Assembly: GCA_022447605.1 (NCBI GenBank)
Contig: JAKVBG010000018.1
Span: 1 to 64,000, forward strand
DNA length: 64,000 nt
Direction: 5' to 3'
Origin: Mariniblastus sp.
Lineage (GTDB): Bacteria; Planctomycetota; Planctomycetia; Pirellulales; Pirellulaceae
The position numbers and the translations under genes are program-made. The notes under the pieces are model-generated. The model ran no database searches, was not told the DNA's origin, and saw only the letters and a program-made list of their open reading frames with translations. Shown in pieces: positions 24,255 through 35,641 of this stretch (the stretch's first letter is position 1; each line of letters opens with the position of its first letter).

Positions 24255-25433
24255 TTAAACAGATCGAAGTCCGTCGACAATAGGCATACGTAAGGCGCGG
24301 ATAGCCGGGGGTAGGGCGCCCAGAAAACCGAGCAGGAAACCGACTCCGCAACCGATCAGGATCGAAGTGCTGTCGATTTGCAGTTGAAACGCCCCCATGG
24401 TAAATCGGACCGCCGCCCCATTGACCAAAGTCAAGGCTAGGAACGACGCAAACAGGCTGGCCGCCAAACCGAGAATGACCGCTTCCTGAATCAAACTGAG
24501 GACGATCGCCCGTCGCACAAAACCGATCGTCCGCAACATGGAAAATTCGGAAATTCTCCCCACCACCGAGCCATACATCGTATTCAGCCCGGCGAACACG
24601 CCAGCGCCGGAAACCAATAACACGACCAACCAGGCCAGCCAACGAATCGGTTCATAGTCACGCTGTAAACCGGCGTAGTACTCGGTCTCTGGCATCGTCT
24701 GAAGTTCCAGGTCGAGCCGCTGCTTGCAAAACATATCGAGGTCCACAAAATCGGCACCCGGCTCCAGCGTCAGGGCCACAATACTCAAGTCCTGACGTTT
24801 CATCGCCTGTTGCAATTCGTCCAGGCGACACCAGATTTCCGATTCGAACGCAGCGCCGCCGCAGGAAAACAGACCGACCACTTTCCAATCCCGGTTTTCC
24901 AATCGGACCGAACTCCCGATCCCGACTTCTTCCCGGGTGGCACCCAATTTGGCCGCTGCCAGCCGCCCCATGATCACTTCGCCGGCTTCGGGCCAACGCC
25001 CTTCCTCCAGTTCAAATTGCCGGCGCACCAGGCAGACTGTCGGCGTCACCCCTCGGACAAGGCCCAAGGTTTCCCGCAAACCCGAACCCTCAACTTCCTG
25101 GATGCCGACTTGCGTCCCGAGGTAGAGCTCCGGTGAAACGTATTTCGTCCCATACCGTTGGCGAATCCCCTGAATACTGGCGGGCACCAGGTCATTGGTC
25201 CGCATGGCGATCGATGAGTATTCGACGTTTTCACCCATGCCCAGGGAAAACACGATCGCCGTGCGGTCATCACCACTGACGGCCAACGAATTTTCGAGTC
25301 CCCGTATAAACCCGACCACGACCAGTACCAACAGCACGACCGTCGTCAGACCGATAAAGGTCAGGAAGGTACGAAAGGGTCTTCGAAACAGGTTGCGCAC
25401 CCCGTATTCCCAGGGGAGCATTCGAAAGAACAT
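24255..25433 (-). CDS. FtsX-family ABC transporter permease (second copy)
   Basis: 392 residues with the same layout as the permease at 19548: TM1 (FRTFLTFIGLTTVVLLVLVVVGFI), a periplasmic MacB-like domain and three C-terminal TM helices, ending RALRMPIVDGLRSV. Sequence is quite different from the other permease, so they may form a LolC/LolE-like heterodimer with the single ATPase. It is the second gene of the operon, after the Cys-rich exported protein, and its 3' end carries the ribosome binding site of the next lipoprotein. Confidence 0.92.
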   Translation of the reverse strand: MFFRMLPWEYGVRNLFRRPFRTFLTFIGLTTVVLLVLVVVGFIRGLENSLAVSGDDRTAIVFSLGMGENVEYSSIAMRTNDLVPASIQGIRQRYGTKYVSPELYLGTQVGIQEVEGSGLRETLGLVRGVTPTVCLVRRQFELEEGRWPEAGEVIMGRLAAAKLGATREEVGIGSSVRLENRDWKVVGLFSCGGAAFESEIWCRLDELQQAMKRQDLSIVALTLEPGADFVDLDMFCKQRLDLELQTMPETEYYAGLQRDYEPIRWLAWLVVLLVSGAGVFAGLNTMYGSVVGRISEFSMLRTIGFVRRAIVLSLIQEAVILGLAASLFASFLALTLVNGAAVRFTMGAFQLQIDSTSILIGCGVGFLLGFLGALPPAIRALRMPIVDGLRSV

Positions 25434-27134: not shown

Positions 27135-27188
27135 GAAACCGAGGGCAGGACCCGTTCCCGGCCCGCCGAACGTACTCAATCAGATTTG

Positions 27189-29966
27189 ATGTCCATGAAA
27201 CACCAGCCGTCTCCCAACCGCCGCAAGTTCTTTCAGTTGGGCGCCGCCATTCTGTCTGGTTCGGCCCTCGGCCTGTCAAGCCGAACTTCACGTCGGTCCA
27301 CGAACCGCCCGGGCCGCGGCCAAGGGCGTGCACGGCCGATCAACCTGGACGAATTCAACATGCCCGGCAATGCCAGCCTGCCCGGGATTGGCGGGGAAGG
27401 GAATTGGCCGGACATGGACAAGTACCGGGATACCGAACAGGTACCCGGCATGTGCCAACTCTGCAGCACGGTTTGCGGAATCGTGGGGCATGTAAAACAG
27501 GGGCGCCTGATCAAGATTGAAGGCAATCCGAAAGACCCGAACAGCCGGGGCAAGTTGTGTGCCCGCGGGCAGGCCGGGCTCAACCACCTCTATCATCCCG
27601 AACGCCTGCTCTACCCGCTGAAGCGTGTCGGCCAACGGGGTGAGGGAAAATGGAAACGGATTACCTGGGATCAGGCACTCGACGAGATCGCCGCCCGGAT
27701 GAAGGCGATCCGCGAATCGGGTCACCCGGAGAACTTTGCCTTCCACCAGGGAAGACAGCGTTCCAAGGATGCCTTGAAACGTTTCCTGAATGCTTTTGGC
27801 ACGAGTACTCAGCTCTCTCACCGCGCGCTGTGCAGTGGAAACCGCCGAGCGGCCAACCTGGCTTACCTGTGGGAAAGTGATTGGGATTTGAATGATGTCG
27901 AACATTCAAAGTACATCCTGAATTTCGGTTCCAACGCATTCGAAGCCCACCAGGGTCACGTCCCGTTTGCCAACCGGATCCAGAATGGCCGGTTCCGGAA
28001 CGGGGCCAAGATGGTCACGTTTGATGTCCGTCTCTCCAACACGGCCGGCAACAGCGACGAGTGGTTTGCCCCGTTTCCCGGCACCGACGGTGCCATCGCG
28101 TTGGCCATGTCCCATGCGATCCTGGCGGCAGGCAAGCACGATGCCGATTTCCTCGATCAGTGGACGACCAGCAGCGTCGACGAATTGAAACAGCATCTGG
28201 CGAACTCGACACCGGAATGGGCCGAGCAGGTCTCCGGGGTTCCCGCTGCAGACATCCGCCGCATCGCCCTCGAGTTCGCCGCAGCGGCCCCGGCCGCCAC
28301 CACGATGTGCAACCGGGGATCGTCGGCCCACCTGAACGGGTTCTACAACGACCGGGCGATCCAACTGTTGAACGCCGTGGTCGGAAGTGTCGGTAAAAAA
28401 GGGGGTTGGTGCTGGTCCCCCTGGGGTGGACTCGATCCGAACGTCAAAACACCGGCCATGCCTCCAGGGGCCAAGACCTGGAGTGTGCTGGAAGACCCCC
28501 CGGAATACCCGCTGGCCAATGTCTGGCGGCGGATGCGGGTCGGCGAAGTTGTCTACCTGTACCTGCTGCAAGGTCGTGCCCAACTCGAGGCGTACATGAC
28601 GTACAACCTCGATTCGCCGTTGACCTGGCCCGAGGAGAGCGTCACCAAAGAGGTGCTCTGCAACGAGGAACTGATCAAGTTTCATGTCTGCATCAACCCC
28701 TTCTACAACGAGACGGCCCACTACGCGGATATCGTCTTACCCTGGACGACCTATCTGGAACGTTGGGATCTGGACGCCCGCGGGAGCTACAACCTGCGAC
28801 CGTATGTCGGACTGCGAACCCCCATGGTGGAGCCGCTCGGTGAGTCGCGGGACGTGCGCGATTTTTTCCCGGAACTGGCCCGCCGGATTGGGGGTGGCAT
28901 GGAGGACTGGTACCAGGAAGATGTGCGCGAGTACATGGAAAAATGGGCCGCCAACGTCCCGGAGAACCCGGAAACGGGAAAACAGGGACTCGATCGCCTG
29001 CTGGACGAGGGAGCCTGGGAAGACACCTCACGGGAGCCGTTTTACGAACCCTTCCTGGCCGACTTGTCAGGCGAAGAGCTGCGGGACACCGAAACGGATG
29101 CCGAGACCGGCATCATCACCCGTGACGGCGTCGGCATCGGGATTCTGATGGACGGGAAACCGGTCCGCGGTTTCAAGACGCCCAGTCGTAAATTCGAAAT
29201 CCGCAGCCTGTTTATCAGCCAAACGGGTCTGAACCAGGACACGACTGAATTGATCAAGCGTTCCAGCCTTTCAAAAACACGCCCGCGCCCCGAAGAGCAT
29301 CACGGTCACGACTACCCCATCGACGAAATGCCCATCTGGTTCCAACCGATCGAGCATGAGGAGATCGAGGACGATCATTTGATCATGACTTCTTTCAAAT
29401 GGAACGTGCACAATCATGGTCGGACCATGAACCTGAAATGGCTGGCGGAGATCGTCCACAGCAACCCGGCCTGGCTGAACCCGCAAACGGCCGAGCGGTT
29501 CGGTGTGGGTGATGGTGATTGGGTCGAACTGACCGCCTATTTCTCAAGAATGCTGGAGTCGACGTCGCCGCACCTGAAATCCGACCATTACGAGCAGGAT
29601 GCCCAAGGTCGGTTGATCGCCGGCCGCCTACGGGTCCCCATCGTCACCATGCCCGGCATCCATCCCCGTGCGATCGCCATGAGCAATAGTTGCGGGCACT
29701 GGCAATACACCAGCGTGGCCCAGGGCAAAAAGAAGGCCGAACCGGCTGCCTCCCGATTGGTTGGCTCCGACGGCCAAACGTATCGCGATCCCGACTGGGA
29801 AGACAATATGTGGTGGGAAGACCGATCGGAAGGTGACCCGCAGCGTTGGGAACCGAACACGGGTAACGGTTGGAACCAGAACCAGATCCTGCCCATCGCA
29901 CCCGACCCCGTGACCGGTCAGCAAGCTTTCCACTCGACGGTCGTCGCCATCCGAAAGATCACCTGA
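27189..29966 (+). CDS. Molybdopterin oxidoreductase catalytic subunit (PsrA/PhsA-like, DMSO reductase family)
   Basis: 925-residue Tat-exported molybdo-bis-MGD enzyme. Signal NRRKFFQLGAAILSGSALGL; one [4Fe-4S] set MCQLCSTVCGIVGHV plus GKLCARGQ at about residues 95-130. The Mo ligand is probably the Cys in SHRALCSGN, as in the thiosulfate/polysulfide reductase and nitrate reductase branches rather than Ser as in DMSO reductase. MGD-binding motifs include NFGSNAFEAHQGH, VTFDVRLSNTAGNSDEW and the C-terminal HNHGRTMNLKWLAE. Unusual are two insertions after residue 580 rich in Asp and Glu. Substrate is unknown; sulfur, selenium, arsenic and nitrogen oxyanions are all possible for this branch. ATG 27195 is an alternative start. 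Confidence 0.92.
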   Translation: MSMKHQPSPNRRKFFQLGAAILSGSALGLSSRTSRRSTNRPGRGQGRARPINLDEFNMPGNASLPGIGGEGNWPDMDKYRDTEQVPGMCQLCSTVCGIVGHVKQGRLIKIEGNPKDPNSRGKLCARGQAGLNHLYHPERLLYPLKRVGQRGEGKWKRITWDQALDEIAARMKAIRESGHPENFAFHQGRQRSKDALKRFLNAFGTSTQLSHRALCSGNRRAANLAYLWESDWDLNDVEHSKYILNFGSNAFEAHQGHVPFANRIQNGRFRNGAKMVTFDVRLSNTAGNSDEWFAPFPGTDGAIALAMSHAILAAGKHDADFLDQWTTSSVDELKQHLANSTPEWAEQVSGVPAADIRRIALEFAAAAPAATTMCNRGSSAHLNGFYNDRAIQLLNAVVGSVGKKGGWCWSPWGGLDPNVKTPAMPPGAKTWSVLEDPPEYPLANVWRRMRVGEVVYLYLLQGRAQLEAYMTYNLDSPLTWPEESVTKEVLCNEELIKFHVCINPFYNETAHYADIVLPWTTYLERWDLDARGSYNLRPYVGLRTPMVEPLGESRDVRDFFPELARRIGGGMEDWYQEDVREYMEKWAANVPENPETGKQGLDRLLDEGAWEDTSREPFYEPFLADLSGEELRDTETDAETGIITRDGVGIGILMDGKPVRGFKTPSRKFEIRSLFISQTGLNQDTTELIKRSSLSKTRPRPEEHHGHDYPIDEMPIWFQPIEHEEIEDDHLIMTSFKWNVHNHGRTMNLKWLAEIVHSNPAWLNPQTAERFGVGDGDWVELTAYFSRMLESTSPHLKSDHYEQDAQGRLIAGRLRVPIVTMPGIHPRAIAMSNSCGHWQYTSVAQGKKKAEPAASRLVGSDGQTYRDPDWEDNMWWEDRSEGDPQRWEPNTGNGWNQNQILPIAPDPVTGQQAFHSTVVAIRKIT

Positions 29967-30786
29967 TTCGCCCAGGGCTGGCTGGAAACAGGTGACGATG
30001 TTTGCGGGGGAGGGCCCGTCGTCGCTGAGGGGAAATGTCGACAGCCACCTGGTCACTGAAATTGTACGCGTCGCGAAACCAGGGACGCGCGTAAACAATG
30101 TACAGGATCGGGCGGACCTGCTCGCTTCGGTTGGCCATCCCGCCGTGGATCAGGCGGTAATCCATCAGGTAGACATCACCGGCCCGGGCCGCCGGAAAGG
30201 TCGTGTCATCCATTTCAGCTCCCCTCGTTAATTCCTGCAGCTTCTGCCGGGCCCGTTCGTCGCTGTGCGAACCCTCCCACCAGGCGGTCGAGCCGATTTC
30301 CGCATCGAGGTCGACCAGGGGAATGACCAAAGTGATGGCATAAGGCGGCAACTGGCAACAGACCTTTTCCGAATCGAACAGGGGCGGGAAGTCGAAGTGA
30401 ATATCCTGGGCCGCTGCGCCCGGGAAGGCCACCACCGATCCGAAACTGGAGATCAGGTAACCGGGCCCCAGCCACGATTCAAACAATGGCGTCAAAAACG
30501 GGTTGGCGAACAGCTTGGGTGAATTGAAGGGGGGCTCGAGCTCCACCGTTGCCATGAATCGGCGATTCCCCACAACCGCGTGCCGCCTGGCCAACTCGCT
30601 GGCACCCTGATCGATGTACCGCTGCTGGTAAGCCCGACGTAAACGGGAGACCATGCTCGGCGAAAATACATTTTCGATCCACAGCGCGCCCCGTTCGCGG
30701 AACAGCCGGTCCGCCTTTTCCGATTGCTGGCAATCCAACACGCCACTCGAGTTTTCCCGCTGGGAAACAGCAATCCGTGATATCAT
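29959..30786 (-). CDS. Phytanoyl-CoA dioxygenase (PhyH) family protein
   Basis: 275-residue non-haem iron, 2-oxoglutarate-dependent dioxygenase. Iron ligands are H130 and D132 (DIHFDFPP) and H214 (RLIHGGMANRS), with the 2-oxoglutarate-binding Arg shortly after, in NRSEQVRP. ATG 30786 is used because upstream residues of the frame have no family similarity. The gene is on the opposite strand inside the molybdoenzyme region: its last 8 bases overlap the end of the catalytic subunit gene, and its start is 155 bases from the chaperone gene. A substrate cannot be predicted; hydroxylation of a small carboxylic acid or alkylamine is usual. Confidence 0.87.
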   Translation of the reverse strand: MISRIAVSQRENSSGVLDCQQSEKADRLFRERGALWIENVFSPSMVSRLRRAYQQRYIDQGASELARRHAVVGNRRFMATVELEPPFNSPKLFANPFLTPLFESWLGPGYLISSFGSVVAFPGAAAQDIHFDFPPLFDSEKVCCQLPPYAITLVIPLVDLDAEIGSTAWWEGSHSDERARQKLQELTRGAEMDDTTFPAARAGDVYLMDYRLIHGGMANRSEQVRPILYIVYARPWFRDAYNFSDQVAVDISPQRRRALPRKHRHLFPASPGRIR

Positions 30787-30940
30787 CTCTACAACGTTTC
30801 CATTCTGCTCTACAATGGGAAAGTCGCCTGCTCGTGGCACGGGCCACGCGGCCCGGCTCGCCAGCCACTTTTTTAACCGCCCCTCGGCGATCCTTAAAGA
30901 AGTCGACCTCCCAGACATTTATCTCCGATCAGGCCGATTG

Positions 30941-31501
30941 ATGGAAGCTGAAATAGACAAGAGCGGCATGGAACAACTCGCCGCCGTATACGGTTTGCTG
31001 GGGAAATTATGGGTCGAGGAAGTCGATCTGACGACCTTGCACGCCCTGGCCTCTCCCCCGTTGAAGGACGTCTGGATTTCCCTCGGTGGCCATGTCCCCG
31101 AGGACACCGACGAACCGACGATCGAGACGTTGGCGGTCGATTACTGCCAGTTATTCATCGGGCCAGGCCAGCCCGTTTCCCCCGTCCAGTCGGTCTGGCT
31201 GGAGAACCGGTTCGAGGGGGCGGCCGCGGTGTCGATGCAGACTTTTTTTGACCTGCTCCCGGATTATCAACCGCCGGAAAAGATCGCCGATCATATCGGC
31301 AACCAGTTTGACTACCTGGCCGAACTGTTTGCCCGCGCCGCCACCGACCCGAACCCGACCAGTTATCTCGGCCTGGCTCGCAATTTCATGCCAAAACACC
31401 TGAACTGGACCGATCCGTTTTTTGACCAGGTCGAAGCCCGCGCCGAAACCGATTTCTATCGCGGCTTGGCCCGAGTCACCCGCAGTTTTCTCGACCAATG
31501 A
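30941..31501 (+). CDS. TorD-family molybdoenzyme maturation chaperone
   Basis: Cytoplasmic all-helical chaperone of 186 residues that binds the Tat signal and apo-form of a molybdoenzyme. Characteristic features are LAVDYCQLFIGPGQPVSPVQSVWLE (the Y-x-x-LF-x-GPG and P-x-x-S-x-[FWY] elements) and HLNWTDPFFDQVEARAETDFYRGLARVTRSFL at the C-terminus. ATG 30941 (MEAEIDKSGMEQLAAVYGLL) is chosen; the frame extends upstream but without family sequence. Its client is almost certainly the oxidoreductase at 27189. The stop overlaps an ATG (31498) of the next frame. Confidence 0.87.
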   Translation: MEAEIDKSGMEQLAAVYGLLGKLWVEEVDLTTLHALASPPLKDVWISLGGHVPEDTDEPTIETLAVDYCQLFIGPGQPVSPVQSVWLENRFEGAAAVSMQTFFDLLPDYQPPEKIADHIGNQFDYLAELFARAATDPNPTSYLGLARNFMPKHLNWTDPFFDQVEARAETDFYRGLARVTRSFLDQ

Positions 31502-32593: not shown

Positions 32594-33520
32594 TCAGTCG
32601 ACCTGCTCCCAATCAGCCAGCTTATTGTTCTTTTCTGCCAAAGAGTTCAGCATCGTTTTGACATCGATGGACGCGTCCAACTCGAACAGGCATGTCTGTT
32701 CATCGAGATCCGTTTCGATTCCGCGGACACCCGCCATCGCTTTCAGGTCGCTTCGCACGGAAGCTTCACAACCCGTTCACGTCATGTGAGGAAGGTAGAG
32801 CGAGACGACCTGCATTTTCCCGGCCGAGTCCTGTCGAGTCTGTTTCTTTTTACCGCCGCCGTGGCCCGGCTGCGCGGCGCTGGCACGGGTCGGCTTGCCA
32901 ACCGCGATCTCGATTTCGACCATCTTGTCCACACCGCTCAACATCTGATCCATGCCGAACTCGGACCGGTCGATCTTGAATTGGCTGGTCATCTGCAACC
33001 CACCGTCGGCCGGCTTCCCCGCGGATCCCAACTTCGCCTCGAAGGGGAAACGGATCTCGCGGGTCTGACCATGCAGCGTCAAGTTGCCCGTGATCCAACC
33101 CTTGACCGAAGAACCACTCGTCTCCTGTTCGATTTTGGTGCTGACAAAACGGGCGGACGGGAAACGGTTCGTTTCAAAAAAATCTTCATTCTTCAGGTGG
33201 TTGGTCAATTTTTCGAATTGCGTCCAGATCGATTCGACATCGATATCCACGGCGATCGATTCGAGCGATTCGCCGGACGCGTCGACCGCGATATGACCGT
33301 GAAAATTCTGAAAACCACCGAGTCGCGGTTTCGGATCGTCTCCCACGTGAATCCCCACAAAGCTGATACTGGAATTTGAAGGGGCGAGCAGGGCAGCCGA
33401 ACGCAAAGGGACAGCATTCGTTGCCGGCGCATCGTCACTCGTTTGGCCCGGCAACCAACTGGCCGGCAGGGTGAGGACGACGGCGAGCGTCCAGTAGAGG
33501 GGATTCTTTCGTAGGTGCAT
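32594..33520 (-). CDS. Candidate selenoprotein: exported YceI domain fused to a Sec-containing HMA domain, read through UGA at 32777-32779
   Basis: Conventional reading ends after VVSLYLPHMT. The next codon is UGA (32777-32779), and the same frame continues as TGCEASVRSDLKAMAGVRG and on to DWEQVD, stopping at 32594-32596. Together VVSLYLPHM-T-U-TGC-EASVRSDLKAMAGV is a textbook heavy-metal-associated (HMA) domain whose MxCxxC motif has the first Cys replaced by UGA, giving U248-Thr-Gly-Cys251. The start at 33520 has AAGGA upstream and a signal peptide (MHLRKNPLYWTLAVVLTLPASWL). Residues about 45-220 are a YceI lipid-binding barrel (SSISFVGIHVG, ARFVSTKIEQ, ITGNLTLHGQTREIRFPFEAKL). A Lys/Gly/Gln-rich linker joins the domains. 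Total 308 residues. A SECIS-like hairpin is at 32750-32764. The gene is divergent from a thioredoxin-fold/YHS protein. Confidence 0.82.
32750..32764 (-). promoter_or_regulatory. SECIS-like hairpin downstream of UGA (YceI-HMA gene)
   Basis: Coding-strand GCTTCCGTGCGAAGC forms a perfect 5-bp stem with loop CGTGC. The loop begins 17 nt after the UGA and has G in its second position. Loop sequence CGTG is shared with the hairpin of the thioredoxin-like gene at 8863-8879, although the encoded amino acids are unrelated. Confidence 0.72.
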
Positions 33521-33907
33521 CGATCTATCCTTCGTGGGTCGTTCCTTGATTACGAAAACGTTGTTCGCAACATTCTCACGTTTGGATTCATATTGGTAAA
33601 CGGGAAAGCAAATTTTGTCGGGCGGCATGCTTTCATCATTCGGTGACCGGGGCCAGGCAACGAACCAGCCTAAAATTGGCCCGAATTTACCCCAACCGCT
33701 CTCGGGGACCGTTTTCACACAACTTTTAATCAAACTTAAGGTTTATTGTTACAGGAAGGCGGTTTGGTCAAATTTCGCCTTTGATATACTACACGTACTC
33801 AAGTTGATCGGAGTTCCGGTTTGGGCCGCCATCCTCCCCCGAAAGGGAAATGGATTCGTGGCCCCTACGCCGTTCTTCCAATAAAAATCTTTGGCAAGAA
33901 AGTAAAC
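33521..33907. other. Divergent intergenic region with promoter candidate
   Basis: 387 bases between the YceI-HMA gene and the thioredoxin-fold/YHS gene. For the plus strand TTTGGT (33763-33768) and TATACT (33785-33790) are spaced by 16 bases and would give a leader of about 110 bases. No gene is visible. Confidence 0.5.
33763..33790 (+). promoter_or_regulatory. Sigma70-type promoter candidate
   Basis: A good -10 (TATACT, 33785-33790) with a modest -35 (TTTGGT, 33763-33768) at 16 bases spacing, upstream of the gene at 33908. Confidence 0.4.
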
Positions 33908-35641
33908 ATGATGATCCGTCGCACGATTCAGATTTCTCTGGGGATGCTACTCGTTTTCCTGTTCGCCGCGTGCCAACCGTTGGTTCTCGCGCCCCCAGCC
34001 ATGGCTCAGGAAATCAAATATGAAGATCGGATGGGATCGAACAGAGATTTCGACATGTGTGAAGATTTCCGCTTCAAACAGATCACCAAACTGGTGGCCG
34101 ACGGGAAGATCTCCCAGCAACAAGGTTACAACATCTGGAAGCGGATTCAGTCCGACAAAGCAGCCGTCAAAAAAGTCTTTGACCAGGCGATCGCCGCCGG
34201 CGAATTGACCCAGGATCAGGCCGATCGCCTGCTTCCGCTGCTGGACATGGAAGTGACGTACCTGGAGGGCCGGCACGGTTGGTTCGGCCAGCCGAAAGAA
34301 CTGAGCGAAGGTACATTCCAAGCGGGCGAGGTCAGCCCGAAACATCGAAACGCGGTTTACCAGCGACTGATCGCTGCCAACGAACGGGGCGAGATGTACG
34401 ATTACGATGTCGCCTCGATCATGAAACAGCTGTATGCCGGTTTCGATCCCGATAACGCACCGGTCGAAGAGGTGGCCCAGTACCGTGGCGCCCTGAACCC
34501 CCGGATCGCGCAAAGTGGCTCCCAGGCCCGCGTGCTGCAAAACGCCCAAATGCAGCGAGATCGCACCAAACAGAATGGTTACGGGAAGGCAGAAATCACG
34601 ATCACCGACCCGGCCGAATGGACCAAGACCCTGGAAAAGACCATCTACTCCGGTCCGCAACCAGGTGAAAACGTTCCCTCACTGAACGCCATCAATTTGC
34701 GGGGAGAGGCGGCAGGCCGCGAGTTGGATCCAGTGAAACTGGCCGGCGACAAACTTCACCTGATGTTCTTTGTTGGCAAGTCGCGCACCTTCGGCCGTTT
34801 CATTGGCCAACTGGGCAAACAACTCCAGACCATTGAAGCGAACTCGAAACAACCTTGGGCCATCTCGGTGATTGTCTGTACCGATGACGCCAACGAGGCC
34901 CAGAAAAGTTTCTCGGTACTGGATCAGCGCTATCCCCAGAACGTCACGGTCGCCCTGTCCAAGGATGGTTCGGCCGGTCCCCCGGCGTACGGCCTGGACA
35001 AGAATCTGACGGCCACCGTCATTGTGGTCAAAGATGGGAAAGTCCTGCACAACTTCGCCCACGCGGGTGACGCGTTTTACACGCAACCGCACATCCTGGG
35101 CGCCCTGGCCGACGCGATGCAGGTCGATCACGACACCCTCCGCAAGTACATCGCCAGCACCGCTGGCGATGCGGCTTCCGCCGCTTACCAACGGAACCGC
35201 CCAGGTGACGCGGCTGGCAGCGCCGCACAAAGGACAGGGTTGCGCAACCAACTTGCACCCCTGGTGCGCAGCCAACGGATCACGCGGGATCAAGCTGGAG
35301 AGATCCTGCAGGTGTCCAAAGATGAGGCGGCACTGCGGGCCAAACTAGCAACGATGGTCAAAGCAGATGAACTGACGCGGGAAGAAGCCGACTCCCTGCT
35401 GCCCCAAGGTCAAGCGGACGAAAATTCGTCAAAGCGGATGAAGACCGCTCCTTTGAAATGCCCCGTCATGACATCCCGTGATGCCAAACGGGAGTTTTCT
35501 ACCTCTTACGAGGGTGGAAACGTCTACTTTTGCTGCAAAAATTGCCTGGCCAAATTCAAGGCGAACCCAAAGAAATATCACGCCGCTGCCCAACAGCAGA
35601 TGGCCTTGGCGGGCCAGGCTCGCGGGAAAGGTGAACGCTAA
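33908..35641 (+). CDS. Exported protein with Cys-less thioredoxin fold and C-terminal YHS/TRASH-like domain
   Basis: 577 residues. Signal MMIRRTIQISLGMLLVFLFAAC could be lipoprotein type (Cys22) or be cut after AMAQ. The N-terminal 150 residues are helical repeats (KLVADGKISQQQGYNIWKRI and similar, with ELTQDQADRLL), echoed at about residues 465-515. The centre (KLHLMFFVGKSRTFGRFIGQL to TATVIVVKDGKVLHNFAHAG) resembles AhpC/TSA-like thioredoxin domains but has no cysteine at the active-site position. The C-terminus CPVMTSRDAKREFSTSYEGG plus FCCKNCLAKFKANPKKYH is a YHS/TRASH-like metal-binding domain. A role in metal-linked redox chemistry is an inference, supported by the divergent YceI-HMA gene. 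Confidence 0.8.
   Translation: MMIRRTIQISLGMLLVFLFAACQPLVLAPPAMAQEIKYEDRMGSNRDFDMCEDFRFKQITKLVADGKISQQQGYNIWKRIQSDKAAVKKVFDQAIAAGELTQDQADRLLPLLDMEVTYLEGRHGWFGQPKELSEGTFQAGEVSPKHRNAVYQRLIAANERGEMYDYDVASIMKQLYAGFDPDNAPVEEVAQYRGALNPRIAQSGSQARVLQNAQMQRDRTKQNGYGKAEITITDPAEWTKTLEKTIYSGPQPGENVPSLNAINLRGEAAGRELDPVKLAGDKLHLMFFVGKSRTFGRFIGQLGKQLQTIEANSKQPWAISVIVCTDDANEAQKSFSVLDQRYPQNVTVALSKDGSAGPPAYGLDKNLTATVIVVKDGKVLHNFAHAGDAFYTQPHILGALADAMQVDHDTLRKYIASTAGDAASAAYQRNRPGDAAGSAAQRTGLRNQLAPLVRSQRITRDQAGEILQVSKDEAALRAKLATMVKADELTREEADSLLPQGQADENSSKRMKTAPLKCPVMTSRDAKREFSTSYEGGNVYFCCKNCLAKFKANPKKYHAAAQQQMALAGQARGKGER

Follow-up and report, generated by a model that had tools for sequence, protein, structure and literature searches.

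In metal-carrier domains of the Atx1, CopZ and MerP type, the first Cys of the metal loop is exposed and initiates metal transfer. The use of selenocysteine (Sec) in proteins is usually explained by redox catalysis. A selenolate is ionised at lower pH than a thiol and is softer than a thiolate. In bacteria, the SECIS element is a stem-loop that follows soon after the UGA codon; its loop lies some 16-37 nt from the UGA and has a G early in its sequence. The relatives of YceI with solved structures bind an isoprenoid-like lipid.

The occurrence of Sec in HMA-type metal proteins is already known in outline. A 2026 review (PMC13188914) includes a table of 119 prokaryotic selenoprotein families or subfamilies, among which are a UxxC cation ATPase, a mercuric transport protein, a UxxU metal-binding protein and CopZ-family 2Fe-2S proteins; the families listed there contain one Sec, and a small subset contains two or three. 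A MerP selenoprotein is listed in PMC2398784, and the use of Sec in planctomycetes is reported in PMC4807772. Within the available portions of the review, the 119-family table contains neither a YceI fusion nor anything recognisable as the planctomycete set of Sec-containing HMA domains (Sec-HMA) described below, and the corresponding portions of PMC9312934, PMC1088965 and PMC12013277 contain nothing nearer to either. An earlier note on this DNA knew of no described YceI-HMA selenoprotein. Our search of the open-licence PMC literature likewise gave no description of one; an earlier listing in the supplementary candidate tables of PMC4807772 is possible.

Here we analysed a YceI-HMA gene with an internal TGA codon in a 64,000-nucleotide stretch of DNA from Mariniblastus sp. 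(the whole of this stretch is called the window) and compared it with related genes in planctomycete genomes.

Gene layout and domains

The gene lies on the minus strand and comprises 308 codons from an ATG to a TGA stop, with a single internal TGA at codon 248 (Table 1). When the protein was scanned against Pfam with U entered as C, both the YceI match (PF04264, E 2.2e-32, 112.9 bits against a gathering threshold of 23.7) and the HMA match (PF00403, E 1.6e-8, 35.3 bits against 24.8) passed the family thresholds. The YceI part is complete upstream of the UGA. Since the HMA match extends from residue 242 to residue 291, the HMA domain spans the TGA. The earlier note had read the frame past the apparent YceI stop as the remainder of an HMA domain and had placed the UGA at the first Cys of the MxCxxC motif; the Pfam match and the metal-loop motif, H-M-T-UGA-T-G-C, agree with it on both points. 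The five-pair hairpin that it had described, with the loop CGTGC 17 nt after the UGA, is also present.

Table 1. Positions of the features of the YceI-HMA gene in the window.
Feature	Position	Strand	Remarks
Predicted YceI-HMA selenoprotein CDS	32594..33520	minus	308 aa with Sec248, ATG to TGA stop
Start codon ATG	33520-33518	minus	Sequence
Final stop TGA	32596-32594	minus	Sequence
Shine-Dalgarno-like GAAGG	33529..33533	minus	8 nt before ATG; sequence
Putative N-terminal signal peptide, about residues 1-26	33443..33520	minus	By eye: charged start and hydrophobic core
YceI (lipocalin-like) domain, residues 46-207	32900..33385	minus	Pfam PF04264; PDB fold matches 1y0g and 3hpe
HMA domain core, residues 242-291	32648..32797	minus	Pfam PF00403; AlphaFold2 model; MerP 1osd fold match
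TGA codon 248, first ligand position of MxUxxC	32777..32779	minus	Sequence; conservation across genomes
SECIS-like hairpin GCTTC-CGTGC-GAAGC	32750..32764	minus	nt 13-27 after TGA; identical in 11/11 YceI-HMA genes

A third Cys, C277 (32690-32692, minus strand), lies close to where the third HMA strand begins. It occurs in 48 of the 70 Sec-HMA domains and in four of the six Cys forms described below, and could act as a resolving Cys or provide a third ligand.

Around 11 loci and the window gene (flanks of 1.5-4 kb or less), we found no conserved gene neighbours that point to a metal. Neighbours were shared only between close relatives, save for one ORF similarity at a different place. Since the neighbours are not conserved between genera, no function can be assigned from an operon. 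In the window, the divergently transcribed neighbour (33821-35641, plus strand) appears by eye to be thioredoxin-like with a C-terminal YHS-type metal-binding motif. Inspection of the ORF list by eye also suggested a large molybdopterin-type oxidoreductase (27186-29966, plus strand) and a TorD-like chaperone (30653-31501, plus strand).

Predicted structure

The AlphaFold2 model, for which eight input sequences were used, has a mean pLDDT of 74.1 and a pTM of 0.58; the pLDDT is below 50 at residues 1-10, 16-32 and 167-171 and in the linker at 218-233. The model consists of a beta-barrel followed by beta-alpha-beta-beta-alpha-beta elements at residues 236-306, in agreement with the ferredoxin-like fold of HMA domains, and Sec248 immediately precedes the first helix (249-260). 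The fold search of the PDB gave 14 matches at E <= 0.001, every one of the YceI type, with 17-28% identity. The HMA part was matched to MerP (1osd; TMt 0.84, E 2.9e-3, probability 1.00) and to domain 4 of the Menkes ATPase (TMt 0.85, E 1e-2, probability 1.00). The results of the PDB sequence search were consistent with these fold matches.

Conservation of the fusion gene

Among the matches listed from a search of 241 family genomes, a full-length match with one internal TGA, at the corresponding codon, was found in 10 other genomes (G137, G115, G119, G025, G022, G042, G140, G043, G124 and G117). These belong to three genera (g1, g6 and g12), and the ten proteins are 42-58% identical to the window protein. 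G140 and G117 are close relatives (dS about 0.16); every other pair among the 11 genes is far more distant. A scan of named genomes, which partly overlap with the numbered ones, gave eight loci (Pirellulaceae, Planctomycetaceae and Mariniblastus sp.), all eight of which encode YceI-HMA when read through the TGA.

No Cys version of the fusion occurs among the matches listed from the 241 family genomes and from 392 phylum genomes. In the 392 phylum genomes, the matches listed at E <= 1e-20 besides the window gene cover the YceI part only, and thus no fusion was found outside the family. In G118, the YceI match ends at the contig end and the C-terminal part is not covered. Random loss of the HMA part among homologues, which the earlier note had named as a sign of a nonsense mutation, was not seen: the HMA part is retained across the fusion homologues, with one decayed copy, in G062. 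This copy (contig C275, about 24894-25268; L028, L075 and L137) has UxxR at the metal loop and in-frame TAG codons. The same genome also holds the four-Sec protein described below.

The codon alignment of the 11 genes contains 69 invariant residues, of which 63 are degenerate, 40 of them four- or six-fold. Among these 40 columns, the codon differs between genomes in 35. The five columns with a single codon throughout are A253, S254, V255, R256 and S257, encoded by GCT TCC GTG CGA AGC, and these are the codons of the hairpin; random placement of five fixed columns would hit exactly the hairpin codons once in 658,008. One two-fold Phe column upstream, among the 63 degenerate columns, is also codon-fixed. 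The codons of the invariant neighbours Gly250, Cys251 and Leu259 vary. Since the frozen codons encode ASVRS, constraint on the protein contributes to their fixation. In the four closest pairs, dN/dS is 0.03-0.06 past the TGA and 0.05-0.08 before it; in distant pairs it reaches up to 0.69 past the TGA, where dS is near saturation.

YceI paralogues of the same genus (L020:1387-2301, L029:1291-2229 and L031:1303-2325) possess a C-terminal EF-hand-like region, with DxDGDG motifs recognised by eye, instead of the HMA domain. The YceI barrel seems to pair with varied metal-binding tails.

Sec-HMA domains in other planctomycete proteins

A profile was built from ten C-terminal domains (alignment A1) and run on the 241 family genomes, 117 of which gave a match at E <= 0.001. 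The 76 matches down to E 1.8e-9 comprise 69 with exactly one TGA, five with no stop and two with other stops. The weaker matches (E 2.7e-8 and above) were mostly without stops and mostly outside the fetched set, and the many weaker stop-free matches in long open frames were taken for ordinary Cys HMA proteins. When the fetched loci were re-read, with loci identical over 48 nt past the codon collapsed to one row, 79 distinct domain rows were obtained. The first ligand codon is TGA in 70 rows and Cys in six, the latter including L080 and the second L073 domain; three rows from the decayed G062 gene (L028, L075 and L137) were left unassigned and excluded from the later counts. The resulting proportions among the resolved domains, 70/76 with TGA and 6/76 with Cys, describe the fetched set only, which is a non-random one in which high-scoring and TGA matches were favoured.

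In all 70 TGA rows, Met stands two residues before the Sec position and the second ligand is Cys. The spacing is UxxxC in L134 and L136 and UxxC otherwise. Ten rows are YceI fusions (11 genes before one duplicate was removed) and 60 are not in YceI proteins. Proteins of 105-197 aa account for 44 rows and proteins of 242-270 aa, which have an extended N-terminal region, for 11; L134 is a protein of 206 aa whose start is uncertain, and four rows are repeats within one ORF. Most of the short proteins begin with a hydrophobic stretch that ends in Gly-Cys, which by eye is lipoprotein-like, and a strict lipobox pattern fits 17 of the 44. In a Pfam scan of six of these 44 short proteins, no further recognised domain was found. 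The source genome itself (G000) carries a second Sec-HMA gene (L090:1510-2010, contig C171), which encodes a signal-bearing protein of 167 aa and has the hairpin GTTTC-GGTCC-GAAAC.

The ORF with the four repeats is found in G062 (contig C92, L118:1534-2886). It encodes 450 aa, with Sec positions U86, U225, U309 and U389, and also has a Cys-rich insert. The repeats differ from one another (dS 0.59-1.38, dN 0.10-0.14) and the UGA is kept in all four. Since the repeats diverge in dS and all of them keep the UGA, they are not an echo of the assembly. Judged from these substitution rates, the four UGA codons are under purifying selection, and L118 is a candidate for a bacterial protein with four Sec residues.

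In a class sample of 397 genomes, matches at E <= 1e-8 were obtained in 56. The same sample contained 14 matches at E <= 1e-20 from outside the family, of which 13 have one TGA, in open frames of 81-191 aa. Three short proteins that are divergent or more CopZ-like, L133, L135 and L136 (in G202, G201 and G192), have TGA as the codon of the first ligand; L133 scores 68.5 bits against CopZ_Bs (cut-off 91). In these three, Sec may have arisen in an HMA domain independently.

Hairpin downstream of the UGA codon

The hairpin of the window gene falls within the SECIS definition, with its loop CGTGC, invariant in the 11 fusion genes, after 17 nt. The five-pair stem was then evaluated in the 70 TGA rows (68 distinct sequences). 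In these, 81.2% of the stem cells are paired against 67.4% (sd 1.3) in shuffled alignments, and none of 500 shuffles reached the observed pairing; when the stem was slid along the alignment, 33-49% were paired. Cells with a double change numbered 46 against 12.5 in the shuffles, and the covariation score was 0.397 against 0.189 (0/500 as high in both cases). All five pairs are changed on both sides somewhere in the alignment, against 3.4 expected, and this is not unusual (37/500 shuffles as high). The slid control is more reliable than the shuffle test, whose result is inflated by relatedness among the sequences.

The stem forms include GCTTC/GAAGC, GCCTC/GAGGC, GCGTC/GACGC and GTTTC/GAAAC. 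At four of the five pairs, 13-17 rows are unpaired, and several such rows carry a different hairpin in about the same position. The alternative hairpin CAGTGC-GGTCT-GCACTG is found in two of the L118 repeats and in L099; we take its loop to resemble that of E. coli fdhF.

Taken singly, the window hairpin is unremarkable (-5.6 kcal/mol), and 15% of synonymous shuffles are at least as stable (p 0.15). The same folding test gave p <= 0.05 for 27 of the 70 rows. Because this shuffle test is weak, the energy of a single sequence was not taken as proof. The proof of the putative SECIS hairpin is the comparison across species, not the stability of any one sequence. RNAalifold gave no consensus pairs on the 70-row alignment, and an Rfam scan of the gene region gave no match.

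Selenocysteine machinery

The source genome has a size of 5.0 Mb in 203 contigs and is 94% complete. The genes for Sec incorporation, which the earlier note had proposed to look for in the same genome, were all detected above the curated cut-offs: SelA (573.5 bits, cut-off 268), SelB (377 bits, cut-off 242), SelD (271 bits, cut-off 125) and tRNA-Sec (68.7 bits, gathering 47). ARAGORN also calls a tRNA-SeC with the anticodon tca.

SelA is above the cut-off in 120 of the 241 family genomes. It was found in 48 of the 55 genomes on the list of those with HMA-TGA domains and in 72 of the 186 others (Fisher p 7e-11), and with a stricter list in 43 of 49 (p 8e-10); these p values are only indicative because the genomes are related. 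One genome, G186, had been mis-listed, as its domain reads Cys, and the proportion becomes 48/54 when it is removed. Among the genomes with an HMA-TGA domain, SelA is not over the cut-off in G124, G140, G113 and G045, yet SelB and tRNA-Sec are. G125 has SelB, a SelA that is truncated at a contig end and below the cut-off, and no tRNA-Sec over the cut-off; G135, an HMA-TGA genome that is 80% complete, has none of SelA, SelB and tRNA-Sec. The genomes compared are mostly fragmented assemblies. Among the 11 YceI-HMA genomes, SelA is above the cut-off in nine.

Discussion

On the comparative evidence, codon 248 is almost certainly read as Sec through SelB, tRNA-Sec and the hairpin at nt 13-27 downstream. 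The whole reading, that of an exported YceI-HMA selenoprotein whose Sec-Cys pair captures a soft metal, is probably correct. Ribosomes would decode UGA 248 as Sec, and the product would consist of the YceI beta-barrel, a flexible linker and an HMA domain with the metal loop M-T-Sec-T-G-Cys. Sec248 would occupy the site where the first, exposed Cys starts metal capture. Its selenolate would stay deprotonated and would bind Hg, Cu(I), Ag and Cd more tightly and faster than a thiol does, with Cys251 as the second ligand, and the predicted export would place this metal site outside the cytoplasm. The YceI part may hold a lipid-like ligand or position the domain at the membrane. The window gene is one branch of the larger planctomycete Sec-HMA set. 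We infer that the capture of soft metal by the selenolate-thiolate pair is the likeliest role.

The Sec-x-x-Cys pair might instead be a redox couple (selenenylsulfide) that, outside the cytoplasm, reduces or exchanges disulfides or acts on the YceI ligand and does not bind metal. The earlier note had suggested, besides soft-metal binding, thiol redox chemistry on a quinone-like ligand. UxxC is a common redox-type motif among prokaryotic selenoproteins (PMC13188914), the protein looks exported, and the third Cys described above recurs in 48/70 domains. However, the fold is that of HMA, not thioredoxin-like, and the Met-x-Sec-x-x-Cys metal pattern is kept, including its Met in every TGA row. We consider the redox function rather unlikely, though it deserves attention. 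Chemistry on the YceI ligand in particular cannot be the general function of Sec-HMA, because 60 of the 70 domain rows are not in YceI proteins.

The internal UGA could also act as a selenium-gated switch that yields the 247-aa YceI protein alone under selenium shortage and YceI-HMA under ample supply. Recoding competes with termination and has an efficiency of 30-40% in vivo, according to the abstract of PMC4513850; the whole YceI part precedes the UGA, and YceI paralogues with other C-terminal parts exist. However, 44 of the 70 rows are short proteins, and the six of these that were scanned contain no further recognised domain, so that the making of two products cannot explain the UGA in general. 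The switch is therefore a very improbable explanation.

It is harder still to believe that the TGA is a nonsense mutation, i.e. a stop by which a YceI-HMA gene has lost its HMA part. In this genome, TGA serves as an ordinary stop, as it does at the end of the window gene itself, and the G062 copy, in which TAG codons interrupt the frame and the second ligand is Arg, illustrates such decay. The same TGA in 11 genomes, the purifying selection past it, the frozen hairpin codons and the full Sec machinery contradict a decayed tail, and this explanation was rejected. A sequencing error or a reassignment of TGA to another amino acid was rejected as scarcely conceivable, for although the source assembly is fragmented (203 contigs), independent assemblies share the TGA, several of these genes end in a TGA stop, and a tRNA-Sec with a TCA anticodon is present.

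Returning to soft-metal capture by the Sec-Cys pair, strong selection appears to keep Sec at the ligand position in a metal-carrier fold, in proteins that are probably exported and belong to many genera of planctomycetes. It is conceivable, although we are slightly more hesitant than confident here, that planctomycetes run an exported selenolate-thiolate metal-capture system in which Sec is a carrier ligand and not catalytic, and that the demand for it helps to keep the Sec trait. If so, the system would comprise dozens of signal-bearing Sec-HMA proteins, the YceI fusions and the four-Sec tandem protein. Since small proteins with natural Cys relatives carry Sec at the ligand position, the question whether Sec was chosen for metal affinity alone is testable. 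Ordinary gene finders would truncate such genes, and the window gene would lose its HMA domain.

Comparison with known systems

In NCBIfam, no match above the cut-off was obtained for the 11 proteins scanned (the window protein and ten Sec-HMA relatives). MerP and CopZ (e.g. PDB 1osd and 1afi) share the fold and the MxCxxC loop with the window protein, whereas they have Cys at both positions; the window protein scores far under their cut-offs (24 of 92.55 for MerP and 24.5 of 91 for CopZ_Bs). E. coli YceI (1y0g) and H. pylori HP1286 (3hpe) have the lipocalin-like barrel in common with the window protein, but match its YceI part alone and possess neither an HMA domain nor Sec.

Among the selenoproteins, NF041115 (UxxU_metal_bind; putative mercuric reductase, UxxU, in the table) is likewise a small HMA-like domain with Sec in place of Cys ligands. 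It has two Sec residues (UxxU), whereas the window protein has UxxC, and against its cut-off of 95 the window protein scores 17.9 bits and the ten Sec-HMA relatives 20-60. NF045683 (MerT_CopZ_Se, MerT/CopZ fusion-like heavy metal transport selenoprotein) resembles the window protein in combining Sec with a CopZ-like part, as judged by its name; it has MerT where the window protein has YceI (19.2 bits against a cut-off of 375). The UxxC of the Sec-containing cation ATPase may lie in an N-terminal HMA domain. The table in PMC13188914 gives this protein the UxxC that is shared with the window protein, but it is a P-type ATPase, whereas the set described here consists of an exported fusion or short signal-bearing proteins. 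Since neither the literature table nor NCBIfam gave a match, what is added to the known use of Sec in HMA-type metal carriers is the YceI-HMA fusion and a Sec-HMA set that spans the lineage and seems not to have been catalogued.
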